A stretch of 64,000 nt of DNA, taken from positions 434,001 to 498,000 of the forward strand of contig NZ_CP043473.1 in the NCBI RefSeq assembly GCF_008275125.1, read 5' to 3'. This document shows positions 9,175-56,854 of this stretch, in pieces (position 1 is the stretch's first letter; each line of letters begins with the position of its first letter). Position numbers and translations under genes: made by a program. A model generated the notes under the pieces. That model ran no database searches, had not been told where the DNA came from, and saw nothing but the letters and a program-made list of their open reading frames with translations. Source of the stretch: Chromobacterium paludis (lineage in GTDB: Bacteria > Pseudomonadota > Gammaproteobacteria > Burkholderiales > Chromobacteriaceae).

Positions 9175-10317
<1,143 letters not shown>

Positions 10318-10382
10318 TTAGCAAAATCAGTCCGCTAGTATACAGCAAGCGCGCGCGCCGCGCCGGAAATGCAAAAAAGTGC

Positions 10383-10411
10383 TTGCCAAGATGGGAAGGC
10401 TCTTATACTAT
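10383..10411 (+). promoter_or_regulatory. Probable promoter of tRNA-Val / thrS leader
   Basis: TTGCCA at 10383 and overlapping TATACT/TACTAT at 10404-10411 give spacings of 15 or 17 bp. They lie 16-20 bp before the tRNA 5' end. No clear second promoter is seen between the tRNA and the thrS leader, so both may start here. Confidence 0.5.
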
Positions 10412-10426
10412 GCACACCTCGACGAC

Positions 10427-10503
10427 AGGCACGTAGCTCAGTTGGTTAGAGCACCACCTTGACATGGTGGGGGTCGTTGGTTCGAATCCAATCGTGCCTA
10501 CCA
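10427..10503 (+). tRNA. tRNA-Val (GAC)
   Basis: Complete cloverleaf of 77 nt with encoded CCA. The acceptor stem pairs AGGCACG with CGTGCCT, the anticodon stem CCACC/GGTGG encloses loop TTGACAT (anticodon GAC), and the T arm contains GGTTCGAATCC. Confidence 0.97.
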
Positions 10504-10526
10504 AATTCAATGCATGGAGTGAACAA

Positions 10527-10574
10527 GTGAAAGCCTTGCGAACTACCACTACCCGACATACTCACGGAAGCTGA
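10527..10574 (+). CDS. Threonine-rich leader peptide of thrS
   Basis: 15-codon ORF starting with GTG and encoding M-K-A-L-R-T-T-T-T-R-H-T-H-G-S. It contains five Thr codons, four of them consecutive (ACT ACC ACT ACC). A good Shine-Dalgarno GGAG lies 7 nt upstream of the start. Its stop codon overlaps the CTGAGCC strand of an alternative RNA hairpin just before a terminator. This is the arrangement of amino-acid attenuators: stalling at Thr codons when charged tRNA-Thr is scarce would favour antitermination into thrS. Attenuation is well known for amino acid and pheST operons; the use here for thrS is inferred from sequence. Confidence 0.65.
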   Translation: MKALRTTTTRHTHGS

Positions 10575-10633
10575 GCCTTGCGGGTTATACCATGCGAAAA
10601 AAGAAGTGCGGCTCAGGCCGCACTTTTTTTTTG
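10571..10633 (+). promoter_or_regulatory. Attenuator: antiterminator/terminator pair before thrS
   Basis: The terminator stem is AAGTGCGGC/GCCGCACTT (10604-10625) with loop TCAG and a run of ten Ts. The upstream segment CTGAGCC (10571-10577) is exactly complementary to GGCTCAG (10610-10616), which contains the 5' arm end and loop of the terminator, so the two pairings exclude each other. A ribosome at the leader stop codon would cover CTGAGCC and allow termination. Weak pairing ACCCG/CGGGT across the leader may be the third, pause-type hairpin. Confidence 0.65.
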
Positions 10634-44396: not shown

Positions 44397-45380
44397 ATGG
44401 TGATGGAAAGTCAATTTAATCCAACTGATTTAAAAAGCATCATGCACTCCAAGCGTGCAAATTTATATTATCTAGAACACTGTCGAGTCTTGGTGAATGG
44501 AGGGCGAGTAGAGTACGTTACAGACGCTGGTAAGAAGTCTTTGTACTGGAATATTCCCATAGCCAATACCACCACCTTGCTGCTGGGCACCGGCACATCA
44601 GTGACACAAGCAGCCATGCGTGAATTGGCCAAAGCCGGCGTGATGGTGGGATTCTGTGGTGGCGGCGGCACTCCGCTATTCAGCGCCAATGAAATGGACT
44701 TCGAAGTGGCGTGGTTCTCGCCGCAAAGCGAATACCGCCCCACCGAGTATCTTCAGCGCTGGGTGGGCTTCTGGTTTGACGAAGACAAACGGCTTGACGC
44801 AGCCAAAGCCCTGCAACAAGCTCGGCTGCTGCGCATTCGCCAGCACTGGCTGGATAGCCGCCACCTGCGGGATGCCGGTTTCCGTATCGATGCAGCCCAC
44901 CTTGAGACTGTGCTTGATGCATCAAACCATGCTATTGCGCACGCGCCAGACCACACCTGCTTGCTAACCGAAGAAGCACGCCTGACCAAGCAGTTGTTTC
45001 GGCTGGCGGCGCAGGCGGTGAAGTACGGCGAGTTCACCCGGGCCAAACGCGGCAGCGGCGCAGACCTGGCCAATCGTTTTCTCGATCACGGCAACTATTT
45101 GGCTTATGGGCTAGGTGCGACGGCCACCTGGGTGCTGGGGCTGCCCCATGGTCTAGCCATCCTGCATGGCAAAACGCGCCGCGGTGGTTTGGTGTTTGAC
45201 GCGGCCGATTTGGTCAAAGACGCCATCGTCCTGCCGCAAGCCTTCCTCAGCGCCATGAGCGGTGATGACGAGCAAACTTTTCGCCAAGGCTGCATCGAAC
45301 AGCTCACCCGTAGCGAAGCACTGGATTTCATGATTGAGCAGCTCAAGTCCATTGCTGAATCCATCGGGAAAAGCCCATGA
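44397..45380 (+). CDS. cas1: CRISPR-associated endonuclease Cas1, type I-F
   Basis: 327-residue Cas1, the integrase that with Cas2 inserts spacers at the leader end. The I-F family start (TDLKSIMHSKRANLYYLEHCRVLV) and FCGGGGTPLFSANEM are present. The metal-binding residues expected from P. aeruginosa Cas1 are Glu193 (LLTEEARL), His257 (AILHGKTRRGG) and Asp271 (FDAADLVKD). In-frame ATGs at 44397 and 44403 are both possible starts. The stop overlaps the next start (ATGA), so cas1 and cas2-3 are coupled. Confidence 0.97.
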   Translation: MVMESQFNPTDLKSIMHSKRANLYYLEHCRVLVNGGRVEYVTDAGKKSLYWNIPIANTTTLLLGTGTSVTQAAMRELAKAGVMVGFCGGGGTPLFSANEMDFEVAWFSPQSEYRPTEYLQRWVGFWFDEDKRLDAAKALQQARLLRIRQHWLDSRHLRDAGFRIDAAHLETVLDASNHAIAHAPDHTCLLTEEARLTKQLFRLAAQAVKYGEFTRAKRGSGADLANRFLDHGNYLAYGLGATATWVLGLPHGLAILHGKTRRGGLVFDAADLVKDAIVLPQAFLSAMSGDDEQTFRQGCIEQLTRSEALDFMIEQLKSIAESIGKSP

Positions 45381-48300
45381 ACATCCTGCTGATTTCGCAA
45401 TGCGACAAGCGCGCCCTTACCGAAACTCGCCGTATCCTCGATCAATTTGCCGAACGTCGTGGAGACCGCGTTTGGCAAACGCCCATCACTCAGGCCGGAC
45501 TGGAAACCTTGCGCCGCCTGCTGCGTAAAAGCGCCCGTAAAAATACCGCTGTCGCCTGTCACTGGCTGCGCGGGCGGGACCACAGTGAACTGCTGTGGAT
45601 CGTCGGCGATGCCAGTCGCTTCAACGCCCAGGGCGCAGTCCCCACTAACAGCGCTCAGCGCGACGTGCTGCGCAGCGACGACGAAAACGACTGGCTGCAT
45701 GGTGAAGACATTCACCTTATCACCGCGCTGGCCGCGTTGTTTCACGACTTGGGCAAGGCCTGCGCCGCCTTTCAGACGCGCTTGCGCAGCAAAGAAAAGT
45801 TAGCTGCCAATTTGTACCGCCACGAATGGGTATCGCTGCGTCTGCTGCAAGCGTTTATCGGCGATGACGACGACGCTACTTGGCTGGCTAGGCTGCAAGA
45901 CCCGAATGAAATGGATGGCGAGCGGTGGCAGAAAAAGCTGGAAGCAGCCAAATTGCGCGATGGTTACGACGCTGCGGCAGCTGACAACAAACCTTTTACG
46001 GACCAGATGCTGCCGCCACTGGCAGCCGCCATCGCCTGGCTTATCTTCACCCATCATCGCCTGCCAGTGCCGCCGCGTGGGGAAACCATCAGCGCAGACC
46101 TGCTGCAAAAAGGGCTGCAAGGGGTAGATAGCCAGTGGAACCAAACCCTCACTGCCGCCAGCAAGGCCGAAGCCAAGCCGTACTGGACCTTCCCGCACAG
46201 CCTGCCGGTGGACGACAAAATCTGGCGCGAACAGGTGGCAAGGTTGGCCGCAGCACTGGCCAAGCGCCAAGCTACCGCATCCGGTAACTGGCTGGAAAAC
46301 CCGTATGTGATGCACATCTCGCGCCTGCTGTTGATGCTGGCCGACCATCACTTTTCCAGCCAGATCGTCAAGCAGAGCTGGAAAAAGTCAGCAGAAGCCG
46401 GCATCGCCTTTGCCAATACGCTAAAAGACGATCCCGAACGCCATTTCAACCAGACGCTTAACGAACACCTGCTGGGCGTGGCACGCCACAGCCAGCAAGC
46501 CAGCCGCGCTCTGCCTGGCTTGGAGCGCCATTTGCCGCGTCTGGCAAACCATCGCATCCTGCGGCAGCGCAGCCAGAGTGAACGCTTCCGCTGGCAGGAC
46601 AAGGCCTATGAACTGGCCTGCGGCCTGCGCGACAAAGCTCGCCAGCATGGCGCTTTCATCGTCAACATGGCTTCCACCGGCTGCGGTAAAACATTAGGCA
46701 ATGCGCGGGTGATGTACGGCTTGGCGGACCCAGCTGTCGGCATGCGCTGCGCCTTTGCGCTGGGCCTGCGCACGCTCACTCTGCAAACCGGCCAGGCCTT
46801 CCGCGACAAGCTGAAACTGGACGACAGCGACCTGGCCATCCGCGTGGGCGGCGCTGCCAGCCGCGAGCTGTTTGAGCACTATCAGGCTCAGGCCGAAGAA
46901 ACCGGCTCTGAATCAAAGCAAACTCTGCTGGACGAAACCAGCCACGTGCGCTTTGACGGCAATCCCGACCACCCGCTGCTGGCGCGTCTGACAAAGGACA
47001 ACGCGGTACAGGCCATGCTGGCCGCGCCGGTGCTGGTCTGCACCATCGACCATCTTATTCCGGCCACGGAAAGCGAACGGGGAGGGCGGCAAATCGCGCC
47101 CATGCTACGGCTTATGTCCAGTGACTTAGCATTAGACGAACCCGACGACTTCTCGATTGAAGATTTGCCCGCCCTCACCCGCTTGGTGTACTGGGCCGGA
47201 CTGCTGGGCAGCCGCGTGCTGCTTTCCTCCGCCACGCTGCCGCCCGCGCTGGTGGGCGGGTTGTTTGATGCCTATCTGGCGGGGCGTAAGCATTACCAGA
47301 ACAGTCGCGGCCAACCTGGCCTGCCGCTGAACATCAGCTGCGCCTGGCTGGACGAACGCGACACCCACACCGCCGATTGCGCTAATAGTGGCGCGTTTGC
47401 CCACGCGCATCAGCAATTCGCCAGCCGCCGCTACGCCTGGCTCGCCAGCCAGCCGGTACGCCGCACCGCCGAGCTGCTGCCGCTCAGCGGCATCCCGCGC
47501 AACGAGCGCGACATGTACGATCCGCTGGCTATCCACCTGCGCGACGCGGCTCTGCGCCTGCACCATGACAACGCGGAAACCGACCCCGCCAGCGGCAAAC
47601 GGGTCAGCTTTGGCCTGATCCGGCTGGCCAATATCGGCCCGCTATACCAGCTAGCCCAAGCCCTGTACCGGCAAGGCGCGCCGGACGGCGTGCGCATTCA
47701 CCTGTGCGTTTACCACTCGCAATACCCGCTGCTGCTGCGCTCCGCCATAGAGCGGAGGCTGGACGCGGCGCTGGACCGCACCACGTCGGAAGCCGTCTTC
47801 AAGTTGCCCGACATCCGCCAGCGGCTGGATGCCCACTCGGAGCCGGAGCAAATCTTCATCGTGCTCGGCAGCCCCGTCACCGAAGTGGGGCGCGACCACG
47901 ATTACTCCTGGACCATCGCCGAGCCATCGTCCATGCGCTCGCTGATCCAGCTGGCCGGACGCGTGCGCCGCCATCGGCCACAGGCATGGGACAAAGTGAA
48001 TGTGCTGATTCTGGAAAAAAACATTCACAGCCTCACTCAGCCGGGCAAACCGGCCTATCTGCGCCCCGGTTTTGAAGACGAGCACGACAACAATTTCTGT
48101 CTGACTGAACACAATCTGCACCAAATCCTGCAGCCCGAAGAATACCGCCACCTGGACGCCCGCCCGCGCCTGCTGGCACGCGAAAAGCTGAATCAAAAAA
48201 CCAGTCTGGTCGATCTGGAACACGCACGGCTGCGCATGTGGATGTCCGGCGACAACGGCCAGCCGCGCACAAAGACCCGCGCCGGCAAAGCGCCGCCAGC

Positions 48301-48718
48301 ACCGCCAATCCATGCCAGCAGCTGCTGGAAACAGCCCGCAGCCATGCTCGGCGCCTTGCTGCAACGCAAGCACCCGTTCCGGCTGGATTTGAGCGAAGAC
48401 GTGGATCTGCTGTTACTGCCCAATGAAGACGAGGATGACTTTGCATTGATCAAGCTGGTGGACGGCGAGCGCCGCTTTGAAAAGAAAGAGCTGGTGGTAG
48501 ATAGCAGCCTGCATCACCGCATTGCCGATAGCGACTTGCACAGCCAGGGCATCACCGCCTGGACGGAAACCGACTATCTCGCCGCCCTGCAAACCCTGGC
48601 CGTGGAGCTGGACTTGCCGCTGGCGCAATGCGCCCGCCGCTTCGGTACGGTGACGCTGCCCGCCAGCGCTCAAGGCTGGTGGTTTCATCCGGCATTGGGG
48701 TTCAACAAGAAAAAATGA
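45377..48718 (+). CDS. cas3: Cas2-Cas3 fusion nuclease-helicase, type I-F
   Basis: 1,113 residues. The Cas2-like domain is residues about 1-95 (MNILLISQCDKRALTETRRILDQFAERRGDRVW). The HD nuclease contains ALAALFHDLGKA (His123-Asp124). The SF2 helicase has Walker A STGCGKT (Lys438), Walker B DEPD (587-590), motif III SSATLPP and motif VI QLAGRVRRHR. A C-terminal domain follows. Cas2-3 is the hallmark of type I-F; it joins Cas1 for adaptation and is recruited by the Csy complex to degrade targets. No truncation is seen. The last bases overlap the tail of a minus-strand terminator. Confidence 0.97.
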   Translation: MNILLISQCDKRALTETRRILDQFAERRGDRVWQTPITQAGLETLRRLLRKSARKNTAVACHWLRGRDHSELLWIVGDASRFNAQGAVPTNSAQRDVLRSDDENDWLHGEDIHLITALAALFHDLGKACAAFQTRLRSKEKLAANLYRHEWVSLRLLQAFIGDDDDATWLARLQDPNEMDGERWQKKLEAAKLRDGYDAAAADNKPFTDQMLPPLAAAIAWLIFTHHRLPVPPRGETISADLLQKGLQGVDSQWNQTLTAASKAEAKPYWTFPHSLPVDDKIWREQVARLAAALAKRQATASGNWLENPYVMHISRLLLMLADHHFSSQIVKQSWKKSAEAGIAFANTLKDDPERHFNQTLNEHLLGVARHSQQASRALPGLERHLPRLANHRILRQRSQSERFRWQDKAYELACGLRDKARQHGAFIVNMASTGCGKTLGNARVMYGLADPAVGMRCAFALGLRTLTLQTGQAFRDKLKLDDSDLAIRVGGAASRELFEHYQAQAEETGSESKQTLLDETSHVRFDGNPDHPLLARLTKDNAVQAMLAAPVLVCTIDHLIPATESERGGRQIAPMLRLMSSDLALDEPDDFSIEDLPALTRLVYWAGLLGSRVLLSSATLPPALVGGLFDAYLAGRKHYQNSRGQPGLPLNISCAWLDERDTHTADCANSGAFAHAHQQFASRRYAWLASQPVRRTAELLPLSGIPRNERDMYDPLAIHLRDAALRLHHDNAETDPASGKRVSFGLIRLANIGPLYQLAQALYRQGAPDGVRIHLCVYHSQYPLLLRSAIERRLDAALDRTTSEAVFKLPDIRQRLDAHSEPEQIFIVLGSPVTEVGRDHDYSWTIAEPSSMRSLIQLAGRVRRHRPQAWDKVNVLILEKNIHSLTQPGKPAYLRPGFEDEHDNNFCLTEHNLHQILQPEEYRHLDARPRLLAREKLNQKTSLVDLEHARLRMWMSGDNGQPRTKTRAGKAPPAPPIHASSCWKQPAAMLGALLQRKHPFRLDLSEDVDLLLLPNEDEDDFALIKLVDGERRFEKKELVVDSSLHHRIADSDLHSQGITAWTETDYLAALQTLAVELDLPLAQCARRFGTVTLPASAQGWWFHPALGFNKKK

Positions 48719-48746
48719 ATGCGGCCAACCTTGCAAGGTTGGCCGC
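48710..48746 (-). terminator. Terminator of the minus-strand mini-CRISPR
   Basis: A perfect 26-bp palindrome (GCGGCCAACCTTG/CAAGGTTGGCCGC) at 48721-48746 is followed, reading on the minus strand, by ATTCA and six Ts inside the end of cas3. On the plus strand no T-tract follows, so the orientation fits termination of the small RNA encoded between cas3 and csy1. Confidence 0.75.
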
Positions 48747-48830
48747 GCTGCCTGTCCGGCAGTGAAGTGTGTGCGGAAAATATCAACTTCGAGCCGCTAA
48801 TTTTCTGAGCTACCTGTACCGGTAGTTATT
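48740..48830 (-). CRISPR. Degenerate two-repeat mini-CRISPR (creA/creR-like crRNA gene)
   Basis: Transcribed leftward. The first pseudo-repeat (48830-48802) keeps the 8-nt crRNA handle CTCAGAAA exactly. Its stem is altered from CTGCC/GGCAG to CTACC/GGTAG, a compensatory change, with one extra loop base. A 34-nt spacer (48801-48768) follows. The second pseudo-repeat (48767-48740) is identical to the array repeat at positions 2-21, which includes the Csy4 cleavage site, and then diverges in the part that processing would discard. A terminator follows. A TATACA box at 48878-48873 may be its -10. The first 17 spacer nt match the nearby promoter region except at positions 6 and 12. The structure matches CRISPR-regulating RNAs of the CreA/CreR kind. 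Confidence 0.85.
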
Positions 48831-48866
48831 CAATTGTAGCAGCTTGGAGGTGCGAGTCGAAACACG

Positions 48867-48929
48867 AAAGACTGTATAAAAAACTTTGAGCCTCTAATGG
48901 TTGACAATAAATCTAGGCAGGGCTATGCT
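48867..48929 (+). promoter_or_regulatory. Promoter toward csy1 with an adjoining Csy-complex target site
   Basis: TTGACA at 48901-48906 and TATGCT at 48924-48929 with a 17-bp spacer form a near-consensus sigma-70 promoter. Immediately upstream lies a protospacer on the minus strand (48898 down to 48867) for the mini-CRISPR spacer. Its PAM reads CC on that strand (GG at 48899-48900), directly abutting the -35 box. Csy1 bound at the PAM would cover the -35 element. Matching is 15 of the first 17 nt and poor beyond, which would favour binding without full R-loop formation and cleavage. Confidence 0.8.
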
Positions 48930-49051
48930 GACATCAAGTTAGCCATGAAGGTGTTCCAGCACCCTCATGGCCACATTGAAAGCTACACGTCTCGATTGCT
49001 CCTCGGGACAGCCCATTTGCAGGGCTTGATGCAAAAACAGAAAGGGAGGAC

Positions 49052-49087
49052 ATGATGGCTAGCAGCCATTTGATCAGAAGAGTCTGA
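49052..49087 (+). CDS. Candidate CreT-like mini-ORF with tandem AGA codons
   Basis: 11 codons, M-M-A-S-S-H-L-I-R-R-V, with a very strong Shine-Dalgarno GGGAGGA just upstream (49044-49050; spacing 5 nt to the second ATG). The two Arg codons (49076-49081) are AGA AGA, rare in this GC-rich genome. In described CreTA modules the toxin CreT is a small RNA with a strong ribosome site and a tiny ORF that ties up a rare tRNA; the archaeal example uses AGA codons. Here the ORF lies 123 bp downstream of the promoter whose -35 is flanked by the mini-CRISPR target. The toxin role is inferred. It could instead be part of a long csy1 leader. Confidence 0.5.
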   Translation: MMASSHLIRRV

Positions 49088-49197
49088 ATCCAAACAGCGC
49101 AAGCGATCAGCGCACTCAGTTCTTGCTTATGCAGGTTGCGAGTGTAGCTGATCCCTTGTTTTGATGCCACGCGATCAAAACTGAGAAAAGGCAAATC

Positions 49198-50607
49198 ATG
49201 AGTTCCCTTTCGCCGAGGGCTTTACGAATACGCTCTGAAATTGCAAGCTTCATCCTTCAGCGACGGGATGACAAGCTCGACAAACTGGCCGACGACGACG
49301 CCAAGCGCGACGATCTGAAAGCCCAGTACCAACCAGCCACCTGGCTGCTTGACGCCGCCCGTCGGGTGGGTCAGCTACAAATGGTCACCCACACGCTCAA
49401 GGCCATCCATCCGGATGCCAAGGGCAGCAGCCTGTTTGCCCCCGCAAGCAGCTTGTCAAACCGGGATGTTGTGGGCAGCCACTGCCTGTCGCCCTCCTCC
49501 GCCAGTGATGTCGTCGGCAATGCCGCCGCGCTGGATGTCTACAAATTCCTCAAGCTGGAACACGACGGCCAAACCTTGCTCAGTCTCCTGCAAGCAGGCG
49601 ATACCGATGCCTTGGCCGCATTGAGTGATGACGTGGAACAAGCGCAAACGCTGTGCGATGCCTTTGTCAGCATCACCGAACCCAACGGCGGCCCCGGCAG
49701 CCACACCCGCGCCAAACAGGTGTACTGGCTGGTCAGCCCCAGCCCAGACGACTTGCCCAATCCTTGTGACGACAGCCATTACCACCTGCTGTCCCCGCTG
49801 TATGCCAGCGCCTTCTCTCACCACATTTACCAGACCATCCAGCAACACCGCTTTAGTGAAGAGGCCAAGGCGGCACGGCAGGCGAAACGTGACGGCGCGG
49901 ATCACCCGCATGGTTACAGCGACTACCCGCACTTGGTCGAAGAGAAAAAAGGCGGCACCAAGCCCCAGAATATTTCCCAATTGAACTCCGAGCGCAAAGG
50001 CAGCAACTACCTGCTGGCTTCCCTGCCTCCAGTATGGGAAAGCAGCGAGCTGACCCCGCTGTACCACGCCGATAGCGCCTTCAACCGCTTTGGCCGTCGT
50101 CGTGAAGTGCAGCGCCTGTTGCGTGAACTGCGCACCTGGCTGCAAAAGCATTACAAAGCGCCCAAAGAGGGAGAAGAAGACAACTCTCCAAACAACGTCT
50201 CCATTCGCGATCACCGCAAAAAACTGCAAGACCAGATTTTCGACGAACTGGTCTTGTATTCCGCCGAAATCATCAACAACCTGCCGCCAGGCTGGAGCGC
50301 GCATGCCGACTGCAAGCTGCCGATTGAAGAGCAATGCTGGCTTGACCCGTGGCGCGCCGCCGGGGATGAAGACTTCAACAAGACATGGCAGTGGCAAGAC
50401 TGGCCCTTGCAAGTGGCGGAACGCTTCGCCCGCTGGCTCAACAGCAAGCTGGACAAGACACTGCCTGTCAATGATGCGGAATTTCGCTACTGGGCACGCG
50501 AGCTGGCCGGTGATCGCGAGTGGCAGATTCTGCAAGATGAACAACAGCGCACGCTGACTGCGCTTAATCAAGTTCAGGGGCTGAAAGGGGATAACGATGC
50601 TGACTAA
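49198..50607 (+). CDS. csy1: Csy1 (Cas8f), type I-F Cascade large subunit
   Basis: 469 residues. Csy1 sits with Csy2 at the crRNA 5' handle and reads the CC/GG PAM. Family features include LSNRDVVGSHCLSPSSASDVVGNAAALDVYKFL in the N-terminal third and QNISQLNSERKGSNYLLASLPPVW in the middle. It is the first gene of csy1-2-3-4 and overlaps csy2 by 11 bp. It is preceded by a perfect inverted repeat GTTTTGAT/ATCAAAAC just before the start, and about 260 nt from the upstream promoter. Confidence 0.95.
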   Translation: MSSLSPRALRIRSEIASFILQRRDDKLDKLADDDAKRDDLKAQYQPATWLLDAARRVGQLQMVTHTLKAIHPDAKGSSLFAPASSLSNRDVVGSHCLSPSSASDVVGNAAALDVYKFLKLEHDGQTLLSLLQAGDTDALAALSDDVEQAQTLCDAFVSITEPNGGPGSHTRAKQVYWLVSPSPDDLPNPCDDSHYHLLSPLYASAFSHHIYQTIQQHRFSEEAKAARQAKRDGADHPHGYSDYPHLVEEKKGGTKPQNISQLNSERKGSNYLLASLPPVWESSELTPLYHADSAFNRFGRRREVQRLLRELRTWLQKHYKAPKEGEEDNSPNNVSIRDHRKKLQDQIFDELVLYSAEIINNLPPGWSAHADCKLPIEEQCWLDPWRAAGDEDFNKTWQWQDWPLQVAERFARWLNSKLDKTLPVNDAEFRYWARELAGDREWQILQDEQQRTLTALNQVQGLKGDNDAD

Positions 50608-51562
50608 CATCACCGGCCTGCTAACCCTGCCGCACCTGCGCGTGCAAAACGCCAATGCTATTTCCAGCCAGCACACTTGGGGCGCGCCCTCCATCACCGC
50701 GTTTAGCGGGCTGATGACGGCGCTGGAGCGCAAGCTGGCAGGCTCTGTCGAGCTGGAATTTTACGGCGTGGGCGTGATCTGCCACGGCTACCAGGCGCAA
50801 ACCAACGGCGATTACGTGCACCGTTTCAATCTGACGCGCAACCCGATAGACAAAGACGGCAGCACCGCAGCCATTGTCGAAGAAGGCCGCATTCACCTCG
50901 ACATCACCCTTGTCTTTGGCGTGGCGGGGGATGCGCTGACGGAAAACGAAGCGAAACGCGACGAGATTGCGGCCAACATTGCCGACGTCGTCGCCACCTT
51001 GCGCATCGCCGGCGGCAGCGTGATACCGCAAACCAACCAGTCCGCCCGCCGCACCAAGCCGACACTGCAGGCGCTGGAAGAGGGCGAAAAGCGGGCAAAG
51101 CAATTCCGCCAGCTTCGCCGCCAGTGGTTGCCGGGCTTTGCCCTGCTCTCGCGTGACGACCTGCTGCACAGCCATCACGCCAGGCTGGTCAAGCACAACC
51201 CCGATGCCACCTTGCTGGATGCCTGGCTGGACAAATCGCGCCTCAATCACGTCCCCGTCACTGACGACAAGGGCGATACCGTCTGGCAGCACTCGCGCCA
51301 GCAGGGCGAGGGCTGGATTGTGCCGATTCCGGTGGGCTATGGAGCATTGTCCGAGCTACACCCGGCAGGCAGCGTGGCCAATGCCCGCGACGACAGCACG
51401 CCGTTCCGCTTTGTGGAAAGCGTGTATTCGTTGGGCGAATGGCGCAGCCCGCACCGCCTGCACGATGTTTTTGATCTGTTGTGGCACCCCGATTTTGACG
51501 AAGCCAGCGGCGTGTATCGCTGCCGCAATCACTATACCGCCCCGCAAGAAACGGTCATCTGA
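50597..51562 (+). CDS. csy2: Csy2 (Cas5f), type I-F
   Basis: 321 residues. It caps the crRNA handle as a heterodimer with Csy1. It begins [42 protein letters not shown], typical of the family, and has the C-terminal [23 protein letters not shown] lies 6 nt before the ATG, which is inside the end of csy1. Confidence 0.95.
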
Positions 51563-51579
51563 CTTTTTGGAGATTGAAC

Positions 51580-52614
51580 ATGACAACCAACCTGAAAACC
51601 GCCACCGTCCTCGCCTTTGAACGCAAACTGGACCCGTCCGATGCGCTGTTTTTTGCCGGCAACTGGGCAGAGCAAGGCAATAGCCAGCACTGGCCTGCCG
51701 TCACCATCCAGGAAAAATCCGTACGCGGCACCATCTCCAACCGCCTGAAAACCAAAGACCAGGACCCGGCCAAGCTGGATGCGGCGATTGAAAACCCCAA
51801 CCTGCAAACTGTAGACGTTGCCGCGCTGCCGCACGATGCCGACACCCTGAAAGTGCGCTTCACCCTGCGCGTGCTGGGCGGCACCGGCGCGCCGTCTGCC
51901 TGCAACAGCAGCGAATACCGCCAAAAGCTGCTGGACACCGTAGCCAGCTATCGCGAAGCCAACGGCTTTGCCGAGCTGGCGCGCCGCTACGCGCACAATC
52001 TGGCCAATGGCCGCTTTTTGTGGCGCAACCGCGTGGGCGCGGAGCAAGTCAATGTCCACATCGCCCGCCTGAGCGATGGCAAAGAAGCCGAAAGCTGGAC
52101 ATTCGACGCGCTGGCGCTATCGCTGCGCGACTTTGCCGCGGGCAGCGCCGAAAGCCAGCTGGCCGGGCTGACCCGCGCCATCACCAGCGGCCTGTCCGGC
52201 GAAGAACATGTCTTGCTGCAAATCACCGCCTTTGTGAGCGTGGGTGCCGGGCAGGAAGTGTTCCCGAGCCAGGAGCTGATTCTGGACCGTGGCCGTGGCG
52301 ACAAGAGCAAGACCTTGTATTTTGTGACGCAGAAAGACCGCAAAATCGCCGCCATCCACTCGCAAAAAATCGGCAACGCCATCCGCACCATAGACAACTG
52401 GTATCCGGAAGCCGACAGCAACGGCCCCATCGCCATAGAGCCCTACGGCTCCGTCACCACCCAGGGCCGCGCCTACCGCCAGCCCAAGCAGAAAACCGAC
52501 TTCTACACCCTGCTGGACAACTGGGTGCTGAACGACAAAGTGCCCGATCTGGCGCAACAGCACTTCGTCATCGCCACCCTGATTCGCGGCGGCGTATTCG
52601 GTGAGGCGGGCTAA
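51580..52614 (+). CDS. csy3: Csy3 (Cas7f), type I-F backbone subunit
   Basis: 344 residues. Csy3 forms the six-copy backbone along the spacer and flips out every sixth nucleotide. It starts [29 protein letters not shown] and includes [25 protein letters not shown] and [28 protein letters not shown] 7 nt before this ATG decides it over an in-frame TTG two codons upstream. It is 17 bp after csy2. Confidence 0.96.
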
Positions 52615-52617
52615 GTC

Positions 52618-53208
52618 ATGGAACACTATCTGGACATCCGCATCCTGCCGGATCCGGAATTTGCCCCGCCACTGCTGCTGAACGCCCTGTTCGCCAAACT
52701 GCACCGCGCACTGGCAACAACGCAGCACAGCGACATCGGCGCAAGCTTCCCCGGCTACGACCTGACGCCAAAGGGAGAAGGCGACAGCACTTTGCGGCCA
52801 ACCCTGGGCCAGGTGCTGCGCCTGCACGGCAGCGCCGCCGCGCTGGACAGCTTCATGGCCCGCAACTGGCTTACCGGCATGCGCGACCACGTTACGCTGG
52901 GCAATATTCAGCCGGTTCCTGCCAATGCCAGCCCCATCCGCGTACAGCGCAAACAGGCCAAGAGCAACCCGGCCAAAGAGCGCGAACGGCTGATGCGGCG
53001 CAAAGGCATGAGCGAGGCCGAAGCGCTGCGGCTGATTCCCGACGACAAGGCCAAGCTGCTGAACCTGCCCTTCATCACCCTGAGCAGTCAAAGCACCGGC
53101 CAGCATCAATTCCGCCTGTTCATCGCCCAGACGGCAGCCACGGCAGAGGTTAAAGGCGATTTCAACGCCTACGGCCTGAGCCGCCACGCCACCCTGCCAG
53201 GGTTTTAA
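52618..53208 (+). CDS. csy4: Csy4 (Cas6f) crRNA-processing endoribonuclease
   Basis: 196 residues. It starts MEHYLDIRILPDPEF, has the catalytic His29 in KLHRAL, and carries the arginine-rich helix RVQRKQAKSNPAKERERLMRRKG that binds the repeat hairpin. The C-terminal block LPFITLSSQSTGQHQFRLFI is typical. It cuts after the 5-bp stem of the repeat and stays bound to the 3' hairpin. The gene starts 3 bp after csy3 and ends the operon, followed by a terminator. Confidence 0.97.
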   Translation: MEHYLDIRILPDPEFAPPLLLNALFAKLHRALATTQHSDIGASFPGYDLTPKGEGDSTLRPTLGQVLRLHGSAAALDSFMARNWLTGMRDHVTLGNIQPVPANASPIRVQRKQAKSNPAKERERLMRRKGMSEAEALRLIPDDKAKLLNLPFITLSSQSTGQHQFRLFIAQTAATAEVKGDFNAYGLSRHATLPGF

Positions 53209-55656: not shown

Positions 55657-56854
55657 CAGGGCAATCGCACCTTCTTGTCATAAGCAAACAGACTTGCCAA
55701 CCCACCCAGACTTGAGGTGAACTCCCAGGTTTTACCGGTGCGGGATGGGAACGTTGATGGAACATTTGGCCGAGGTGCCCGAGCCGAGGACCGGGCGCTA
55801 CATCGCCCATCCGCTGGACGAAATTCTGGTGATTGCCGTGTGCGCCATCTTCGCGGGGGCGGAGAGCTTTGTGGAGGCGGTCGAGTGGGCTGAGGTTAAG
55901 GAAGCTTGGCTGCGGCGCTTCCTGCCGTTGAAGAATGGCATTCCTTCTCACGATACCGTCAACCGCGTGTTCCGACTGCTGGATCCCAAGCAGTTCGAGA
56001 ACGCCTTCCGCAGCTGGACGCAAGGACTGCTGGGCTCGTTCCAGCAGATCGCCATCGATGGCAAATGCCTGCGCGGCACCGCTCGCGGCGCGCACAGCCC
56101 GGTGCACATGGTCAGCGCCTTCGCCACCGAACTGGGCTTGGCGCTGGGGCAGGAGAAAGTCGCCGACAAAAGCAATGAAATCACTGCGATTCCGGCGTTG
56201 CTGGCCGCACTGGATGTGGAGGGCTGTCTGGTCAGCCTGGATGCGATGGGCTGCCAGAAAGAGGTTGCCAAGACCATCGTGGCGCGTAAAGCGGACTATT
56301 TGCTGGCGGTGAAGGAGAACCAGCCCAAGCTACGTCAGGCCGTAGCGTGCGCGCTGCATGACCATCCCACCGAGCGAGTGGCCAGCGCGCAAAAAGGGCA
56401 TGGCCGCACGGTGTTGCAACATGTGGTGACAGCCCGGGCGGACGGCATTGTCGACGCTCAGGCCTGGCCCGGCTGCCAAACAGTGGGTCGCGTGGATTCG
56501 GTGCGGCTGGATGGTCGCGGACAATCGGCGCTGGAGCAGCGCTATTATTTGTCGTCGCGCGCGTTGAGCGCGGAAGAGCTGGCGCAGGCGGTGCGCCGTC
56601 ATTGGGCGATCGAAAACGGCCTGCATTGGTGTCTGGATGTGATTTTTCGGGAAGATAACTGCCCATTGCGCGAAGATCATGGACCGCAGAATTTTGCGCT
56701 GCTGCTGAAATTCGCGCTCAACCTGCTGCGTAGTTCGCCGTATCAGGCCAAGAAAAGCATGCGGGTGCGACGCAAGCGTGCCGGCTGGGATGATGAGGCC
56801 TTGGCTGAGTTGCTGGGCATGTCGCCTTTATGACGTGAAGGTGCGATTGCCCTG
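55657..56854 (+). mobile_element. ISAs1-family insertion sequence inside a CRISPR spacer
   Basis: 1,198 bp. Terminal inverted repeats of 27 bp match at 25 positions (both start CAGGGCAATCGCACCTTC; 55657-55683 and 56828-56854). The 10-bp target duplication CGAGTTCGCC flanks it at 55647-55656 and 56855-56864. The 26 nt before the element plus the six bases CACACT after the second duplicate make exactly one 32-nt spacer, so the insertion went into a spacer and nothing else was lost. The element encodes one intact transposase. Confidence 0.97.
55745..56833 (+). CDS. ISAs1-family DDE transposase
   Basis: 362 residues (358 if started at the second ATG, which has GGGA 6 nt upstream). The family blocks are complete: the N-terminal DUF4338-like domain (HPLDEILVIAVCAIFAGAESF), GIPSHDTVNRVF, QIAIDGKCLRGTA with the first catalytic Asp, VSLDAMGCQKEVAKTIV with the second Asp, KADYLLAVKENQP, and RHWAIENGLHWCLDVIFREDNCPLRE with the catalytic Glu. 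The stop codon lies inside the right inverted repeat. It reads in the same direction as array transcription. Confidence 0.96.
   Translation: MGTLMEHLAEVPEPRTGRYIAHPLDEILVIAVCAIFAGAESFVEAVEWAEVKEAWLRRFLPLKNGIPSHDTVNRVFRLLDPKQFENAFRSWTQGLLGSFQQIAIDGKCLRGTARGAHSPVHMVSAFATELGLALGQEKVADKSNEITAIPALLAALDVEGCLVSLDAMGCQKEVAKTIVARKADYLLAVKENQPKLRQAVACALHDHPTERVASAQKGHGRTVLQHVVTARADGIVDAQAWPGCQTVGRVDSVRLDGRGQSALEQRYYLSSRALSAEELAQAVRRHWAIENGLHWCLDVIFREDNCPLREDHGPQNFALLLKFALNLLRSSPYQAKKSMRVRRKRAGWDDEALAELLGMSPL

Follow-up and report, generated by a model that had tools for sequence, protein, structure and literature searches.

The closest described relatives of the locus reported here are the type I-F CreTA modules published in 2023 from the cas3-csy1 gap of three Acinetobacter strains, WCHA45, LoGeW2-3 and ANC3789 (PMC10097628; this and the other papers are cited from excerpts). 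In WCHA45, CreA pairs with its target except at positions 6, 11 and 18, and repression needs the Csy complex, not Cas1 or Cas3. All codons of the WCHA45 creT other than start and stop were changed synonymously, and toxicity was reportedly lost for codons 2, 3 and 5. The start-codon hairpin was named as the key element of toxicity and rRNA as its likely target, not rare codons. Further I-F modules are mentioned in the supplement of the same paper, and the lineage studied here may be among them. In haloarchaea, CreT traps a tRNA by means of tandem codons, AGA AGA in H. hispanica and AUA AUA in H. hubeiense (PMC8501985). The type I-E CreTA of Citrobacter rodentium has a toxic small ORF that was demonstrated experimentally (PMC12055562). 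CreR regulators, which have no toxin, are described for subtypes I-B, I-E and V-A in one review (PMC13131331), for type I and V-A in another (PMC12737573), and without a subtype in a further paper (PMC12948488), as far as the cited passages go. Titles and the opening lines of abstracts in the open-licence literature revealed no paper on the present lineage or on a CreT bearing TTA codons.

The window (the whole 64-kb stretch of DNA analysed) contains the cas1, cas3 and csy1-4 genes of a type I-F locus, and the encoded proteins matched their family models over nearly the full length (Table 1). The main array of the locus has 90 exact repeats and is interrupted by a DDE transposase gene at window positions 55745-56833. 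The gap between cas3 and csy1 holds a mini-CRISPR, creA, consisting of two degenerate repeats that keep the Csy4 stem, with one spacer between them. In the predicted fold of RNA 48830-48720, both Csy4-type stems and the terminator were present (z -5.3). A search of Rfam returned nothing but the CRISPR-DR4 repeat match under the gathering score at psiR2. The preliminary description had placed a minus-strand mini-CRISPR with two pseudo-repeats, one spacer and a terminator here, and each of these elements was recovered at that place.

Table 1. Features of the type I-F locus and of the module between cas3 and csy1 (positions in the window).
Feature	Position	Strand	Basis
cas1f	44397..45380	+	NCBIfam TIGR03637 above cut-off
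cas3f	45377..48718	+	TIGR02562 above cut-off
Intrinsic terminator of creA	48746-48710	-	11-bp stem and T tract
psiR2, stem intact, 3' handle lost	48767-48747	-	Sequence, fold, sub-gathering Rfam CRISPR-DR4 match
psiS, CreA spacer of 34 nt; nt 1-17 = ATTAGCGGCTCGAAGTT	48801-48768	-	Sequence
psiR1, degenerate repeat; Csy4-type stem CTACC/GGTAG, 6-nt loop, handle CTCAGAAA	48830-48802	-	Sequence, fold
Predicted creA promoter, TCGACT-N16-TACAAT, TG before -10	48860-48833	-	Consensus scan 9/12
CreA target (48898-48882) with CC PAM (48900-48899)	48900-48882	-	15/15 at non-6n positions
PcreT, TTGACA-N17-TATGCT, PAM touches -35	48901-48929	+	Consensus scan 10/12
5' leader hairpin of CreT RNA	48942..48971	+	Fold of 48936-49200, z -3.5
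Shine-Dalgarno GGGAGG	49044..49049	+	Sequence
Putative creT mini-ORF, 33 nt, MASSHLIRRV	49055..49087	+	Likeness to LoGeW2-3 creT
Long 3' hairpin with core 49105-49153 and TTGTTTT behind it; may terminate or attenuate ahead of csy1	49095..49163	+	Fold, z -5.1
csy1	49198..50607	+	TIGR02564 above cut-off
csy2	50597..51562	+	TIGR02565 above cut-off
csy3	51574..52614	+	TIGR02566 above cut-off
csy4 (cas6f), expected CreA processor	52618..53208	+	TIGR02563 above cut-off

The spacer matched a PAM-flanked target 97 nt away at 15 of the first 17 positions. The mismatches fell at positions 6 and 12, leaving paired segments at 1-5, 7-11 and 13-17. Beyond nt 17, positions 18, 19, 21 and 22 were mismatched, and 20 and 23 matched. 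This pairing, with the next mismatch at 18, and the CC PAM touching the -35 box had both been proposed from the letters alone, and both held. So did the claim that the match is unlikely by chance: when positions 6 and 12 were masked, exactly two sites in the genome (4,279,774 bases) carried the 17-mer, the spacer and the target, and the reversed pattern, used as a control, was found once. None of 200 shuffled spacers attained the observed score. The 85 spacers extracted from the main array reached at best 10/15 against the 118 CC sites of the same kilobase, compared with 15 for the mini-CRISPR spacer. A chance match was therefore rejected, since shuffled spacers, cross-spacers and array spacers all scored lower. 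The promoter beside the target, PcreT, was the sole plus-strand consensus promoter match in a scan of 48600-49300.

Downstream of PcreT, a Shine-Dalgarno sequence beginning 115 nt past the -10 box precedes a mini-ORF that the preliminary description had missed, although its core idea, a crRNA-like repressor as in CreA and CreR, gained support from comparison. The codons of the mini-ORF, ATG GCT AGC AGC CAT TTG ATC AGA AGA GTC TGA, resemble those of the LoGeW2-3 creT at the corresponding place, ATG TTT AGC ACA CAT TTA GTT AGA AGG GTC TAG (MFSTHLVRRV; locus L092), sharing 23 of the 33 nt and, in translation, 7 of 10 residues. No shuffle out of 2000 reached 23 against the LoGeW2-3 creT, and only 2 of 471 plus-strand tiles of the window did so, both of which include the creT site itself. 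The runner-up on both strands of the window scored 22 and lay on the reverse strand of csy3. Because nucleotide identity to LoGeW2-3 alone is modest, the case for a creT rests jointly on position, Shine-Dalgarno sequence, length and frame. Codons 8 and 9 (49076-49081) form a tandem AGA AGA. AGA ranks third rarest of the 61 codons in the genome and makes up 1.8% of Arg codons, as counted in ORFs of at least 300 aa in all frames of 400 kb.

The start codon lies inside a predicted 7-bp hairpin, which by itself gave z -1.1, with 29 of 200 shuffles equally stable. In WCHA45 the corresponding hairpin has been demonstrated. Among minimum-energy folds of twelve mini-ORF stretches, the start-codon hairpin was absent in some, LoGeW2-3 included. 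For the whole RNA from 48936 to 49200, 1 of 200 shuffles folded as well. The 3' hairpin escaped the terminator scan; the T tract behind it is weak, and 110 nt separate creT from csy1.

The module is like the Acinetobacter I-F CreTA, as described in the cited excerpts, in its position in the cas3-csy1 gap, in two degenerate repeats opposite creT, in the CC PAM and in the unpaired position 6. A 33-bp mini-ORF with a Shine-Dalgarno sequence, downstream of the target and divergent from creA, is also common to both. The module is less new than the preliminary description implied, since Acinetobacter I-F loci with this layout between cas3 and csy1 were already published (PMC10097628). Among the differences, the target abuts the -35 box here and lies downstream of PcreT in WCHA45, and the spacer has 34 nt here compared with 20 nt in WCHA45. 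With the haloarchaeal CreTA (PMC8501985) the module shares a strong translation start, tandem rare codons, a stem-loop after the mini-ORF and, by prediction, Cascade-guided repression. That system, however, is archaeal, belongs to another CRISPR subtype and carries its rare pair near the start of an ORF of 4-6 codons. The C. rodentium CreTA (PMC12055562) is similar in occupying the cas3-casA gap, with CreA on the opposite strand and a PAM-flanked promoter target (the UP element), but it is of type I-E and has a 96-bp ORF without rare codons. With CreR, the locus shares a mini-CRISPR that matches a cas-locus promoter to a limited extent; unlike in CreR, a creT-like mini-ORF lies between.

We surveyed csy1 loci for similar units. 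Matches to csy1 were found in 17 of 61 genomes of the family, 21 of 399 of the order and 32 of 369 of the class, and in 4 of 6, 4 of 11, 16 of 85 and 68 of 301 genomes in searches around other centres. Loci were taken from the best 30 matches of the 68 genomes in the latter search, and from 30 of the 32 genomes in the class search. Ten loci in named genome contigs and 17 plasmid records, three of which were fetched, were further sources. Before counting, 17 locus names were dropped (repeat entries, the second parts of split genes, and L052, L137 and L138), and L177 was skipped because its upstream sequence was missing; 113 distinct csy1 loci were counted. A locus was counted if it had a psiR1-spacer-psiR2 unit together with a CC-flanked target matching at least 11/15 overall and at least 8/10 in the seed, with positions 6, 12 and 18 left out of the score.

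A spacer-target pair was found in 37 of the 113 loci, including the window and the published LoGeW2-3, which served as a positive control and in which the same detector recovered unit and target at 14/15. Shuffled spacers passed the same cut in 33 of 3700 cases. The 37 are a lower bound, as units in L025 and L032 (spacer TAGTCC...) near csy1 escape the hairpin rule. All 37 units lay on the strand opposite to csy1, and 36 of the targets on the strand of the unit. The exception, L045, in AT-rich DNA, is doubtful and was retained. From position 1 to 18, the numbers of matching loci were 37, 37, 37, 37, 37, 10, 35, 35, 33, 34, 35, 8, 36, 28, 32, 30, 27 and 14, the high values elsewhere in 1-17 being partly a selection effect. 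Positions 6 and 12 paired at chance level (10/37 and 8/37). As these two positions were unscored, the drop there is an unbiased sign that a type I effector reads the pairing. The weakest pairs were those of L020 and L036, where the match was limited to the first 11-13 nt and was reached by 2 and 1 of 200 shuffles, respectively. Of the 17 loci in the family, three (L019, L020 and L028) had a unit by the rule, two further units were recognized by eye (L025 and L032), and 11 of the 17 had gaps of about 150-200 nt with no unit.

If spacer and target function together, as the preliminary description proposed, they should change together in related genomes; a drifting apart had been named as evidence against it. 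The comparison gave the opposite of drift. Between L148 and L149, of one genus, the spacer differences at positions 11, 15, 16 and 20 (within nt 1-23) were all mirrored in the targets with the same letters (4/4), and the own score of 13 fell to 10 in the cross comparison. Mismatches at 6, 10, 12 and 14 persisted, which speaks against the copying of spacer or target one from the other. In L069 and L142, also of one genus, the mini-ORF was retained as far as codon 7, but both spacer and target were replaced; the own scores were 12 and 14, and the cross scores 4 and 5. L028, from the genus of the window, has a creT related in sequence to that of the window and an unrelated spacer and target (own 15 and 15, cross 4). 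The picture was weaker for the second type of unit, present in G011, G014 and G022 (own 14, 13 and 11; cross 7-13), the G014 spacer scoring 13 on the target of G011, equal to the score on its own target.

The distance from target to csy1 separated the loci into classes, although csy1 starts were extrapolated from tblastn and distances may err by about 30 nt. In 13 of the 37 loci (L020, L039, L046, L081, L082, L162, L168, L171, L172, L174, L178, L179 and L185), the target lay 27-114 nt from csy1 and no Shine-Dalgarno-led mini-ORF was present, there being little room for one below about 60 nt. These 13 are candidates for cas autorepression of a type I-F CreR. Four loci with the target at 159-215 nt also had no such mini-ORF; they include the doubtful L045, and L074, where another ORF was seen by eye. 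In L183 (G1175), a CreA-like unit had its target 904 nt before csy1, ahead of an ORF that looked HAD-like by eye.

The remaining 19 loci had targets 246-671 nt from csy1, and 14 of them had a Shine-Dalgarno-led mini-ORF with a tandem rare pair, defined as two adjacent codons from AGA, AGG, TTA and ATA. Nine carried AGA AGA, two AGA AGG (LoGeW2-3 among them), two TTA TTA and one TTA ATA. In a control of 20 stretches of 20 kb from the window genome (400 kb, both strands), such a pair occurred in 1 of 76 Shine-Dalgarno-led mini-ORFs. These counts are not independent trials, since the codon set was picked with the first cases already in view and some of the loci are closely related. A claim that the pairs use no Arg codon other than AGA and AGG was dropped as circular, the pairs having been picked as rare codons. 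The other five of the 19 were L063 (TCA ATA), L068 (a stop before AGA AGA), L154 (one ATA), L070 (TTA TTA, no stop within 20 codons) and L156 (no pair found).

Alignment of L158 with L070 placed AGA AGA opposite TTA TTA, with the flanking codons largely kept. The conserved tandem rare codons and this exchange suggest that the mini-ORFs act by tRNA trapping. In codon tables drawn from longest or all-frame ORFs, some of them false, and from small samples except for the window genome, AGA was the rarest codon in G073, G686 and G723, and fifth in G014, where AGG was second. TTA was second rarest in G581 (AGA seventh) and sixth in G260 and G282, which use TTA TTA though AGA is rarer there (fourth and first). 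In G647, TCA ranked 15th and ATA 14th. The pairs are thus mostly, not always, among the rarest codons. The creT copies of L068 and L070 looked altered with csy1 intact, and intact relatives exist; a strict toxin addiction is therefore not favoured. A broken csy1 beside these altered copies was considered and rejected, as the stops at codons 428/435 and 413/431 were natural ends and none was present in G581.

Several other arrangements were observed in this slot. About 1 kb before csy1, L028 (G014) has two tandem mini-CRISPRs, the first aimed at the creT promoter and the second (spacer TAGTCCAGTTAGG) at the promoter beside csy1; G011 and G022 carry homologues of this second unit in which spacer and target have changed. 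The csy1 leaders of L025, L027, L028 and L032 contain AGGAGG followed by ATG CAA TGA (three) or ATG TAA TGA (one), with a strong hairpin, and these might possibly be a minimal creT. In L058 (G022), a Fic/Doc-family ORF at 10221-10589 lies about 1 kb before csy1, near the creTA place of G014, and may be a protein toxin occupying the same slot. Plasmid pVF1 of Vitreoscilla filiformis (L093) carries an I-F locus with a creTA-like unit (AGA AGA), and VapC-family and XRE genes also stand between its cas3 and csy1.

Taken together, the module in the window is probably a type I-F CreTA, with CreA directing the Csy complex to shut off a CRISPR-guarding toxin. Sequence and comparison establish the pseudo-repeats, spacer, target, PAM, promoter match, Shine-Dalgarno sequence, mini-ORF, creT likeness and covariation, from which the following course may be drawn. 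Csy4 would process CreA to about 62 nt (8 + 34 + 20). The CreA-Csy complex would then bind the target through about 17 nt of pairing without cleavage, as suggested by the end of continuous pairing at nt 17, and would occlude the -35 box of PcreT, keeping the presumably toxic small RNA of creT silent. If Csy were lost, CreT would be made and the cell killed or arrested, so that loss of CRISPR is likely to poison the cell. CreT would most likely trap the rare AGA-reading tRNA through its tandem AGA AGA, and the start-codon hairpin may set creT initiation. The tRNA step may not hold, given the synonymous-codon result in WCHA45 and the part of the start-codon hairpin there as key element, although AGA AGG stands in the LoGeW2-3 creT too.

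It is possible, though we lean against it, that CreTA extends here to a single promoter for creT and csy1-4, at which CreA would silence the toxin and autorepress the effector together. As no second consensus promoter was found before csy1, repression at PcreT may also lower csy1-4 by read-through, partly in the manner of CreR. The lone plus-strand promoter match, the short creT-csy1 distance and the weak T tract agree with this reading, as do the toxin-type, regulator-type and tandem arrangements within the same genus (L019, L020 and L028). On the other hand, a strong hairpin lies between creT and csy1, and read-through from cas1-cas3 could supply csy1; in L028, the strong hairpin behind creT and the additional mini-CRISPR ahead of csy1 suggest separate units.

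That the mini-CRISPR is a cas autorepressor alone, with the promoter serving the csy operon and the mini-ORF an incidental leader peptide, seems unlikely. This CreR interpretation would explain the want of a further consensus promoter ahead of csy1, and it has parallels in CreR of other subtypes and in the 13 close-target loci, among them L020 (G028) of the same genus, where CC touches a TTGATA -35 box 114 nt from csy1 and no mini-ORF is present. However, the mini-ORF is similar to a published creT and turns up again, with rare codons, in loci of other orders, and a strong 3' hairpin stands between it and csy1. A CreR has a cas-promoter target with no toxin between, and here a creT-like, presumably toxic mini-ORF intervenes. 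Since this mini-ORF comes first after the promoter, the module is in the first place a toxin-antitoxin pair; that it also represses cas is only a possibility. A decayed array whose spacer serves ordinary phage defence is highly improbable: the psiR2 handle is lost, and the best phage match covers 20 bases (Streptococcus phage, E 0.2), but the phage matches were only weak, the PAM-flanked target is unique, the same arrangement recurs with other spacers in 36 other loci, LoGeW2-3 included, and the covariation of spacer and target speaks against decay.

As a CreTA module, the locus indicates that CRISPR-guarding toxin modules in type I-F reach well beyond Acinetobacter. The 37 comparable examples, one of them already published, display a clean 6-nt pairing pattern and mirrored changes of spacer and target, and offer material for a direct test of whether a bacterial I-F toxin traps rare tRNAs. 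The close-target loci provide a candidate I-F form of cas autorepression, a subtype unnamed for CreR in the cited review passages (PMC13131331, PMC12737573). We also put forward, as a tentative and rather doubtful extension, that creT sits in the csy1-4 leader, so that Csy, through CreA, throttles at a single promoter both the operon that encodes it and a toxin that traps tRNA; that the I-F slot switches among CreTA, a CreR of type I-F and a tandem of the two; and that the trapped tRNA is exchanged, AGA giving way to TTA, while the rest of the mini-ORF is conserved. If true, one leader would couple immunity to suicide.
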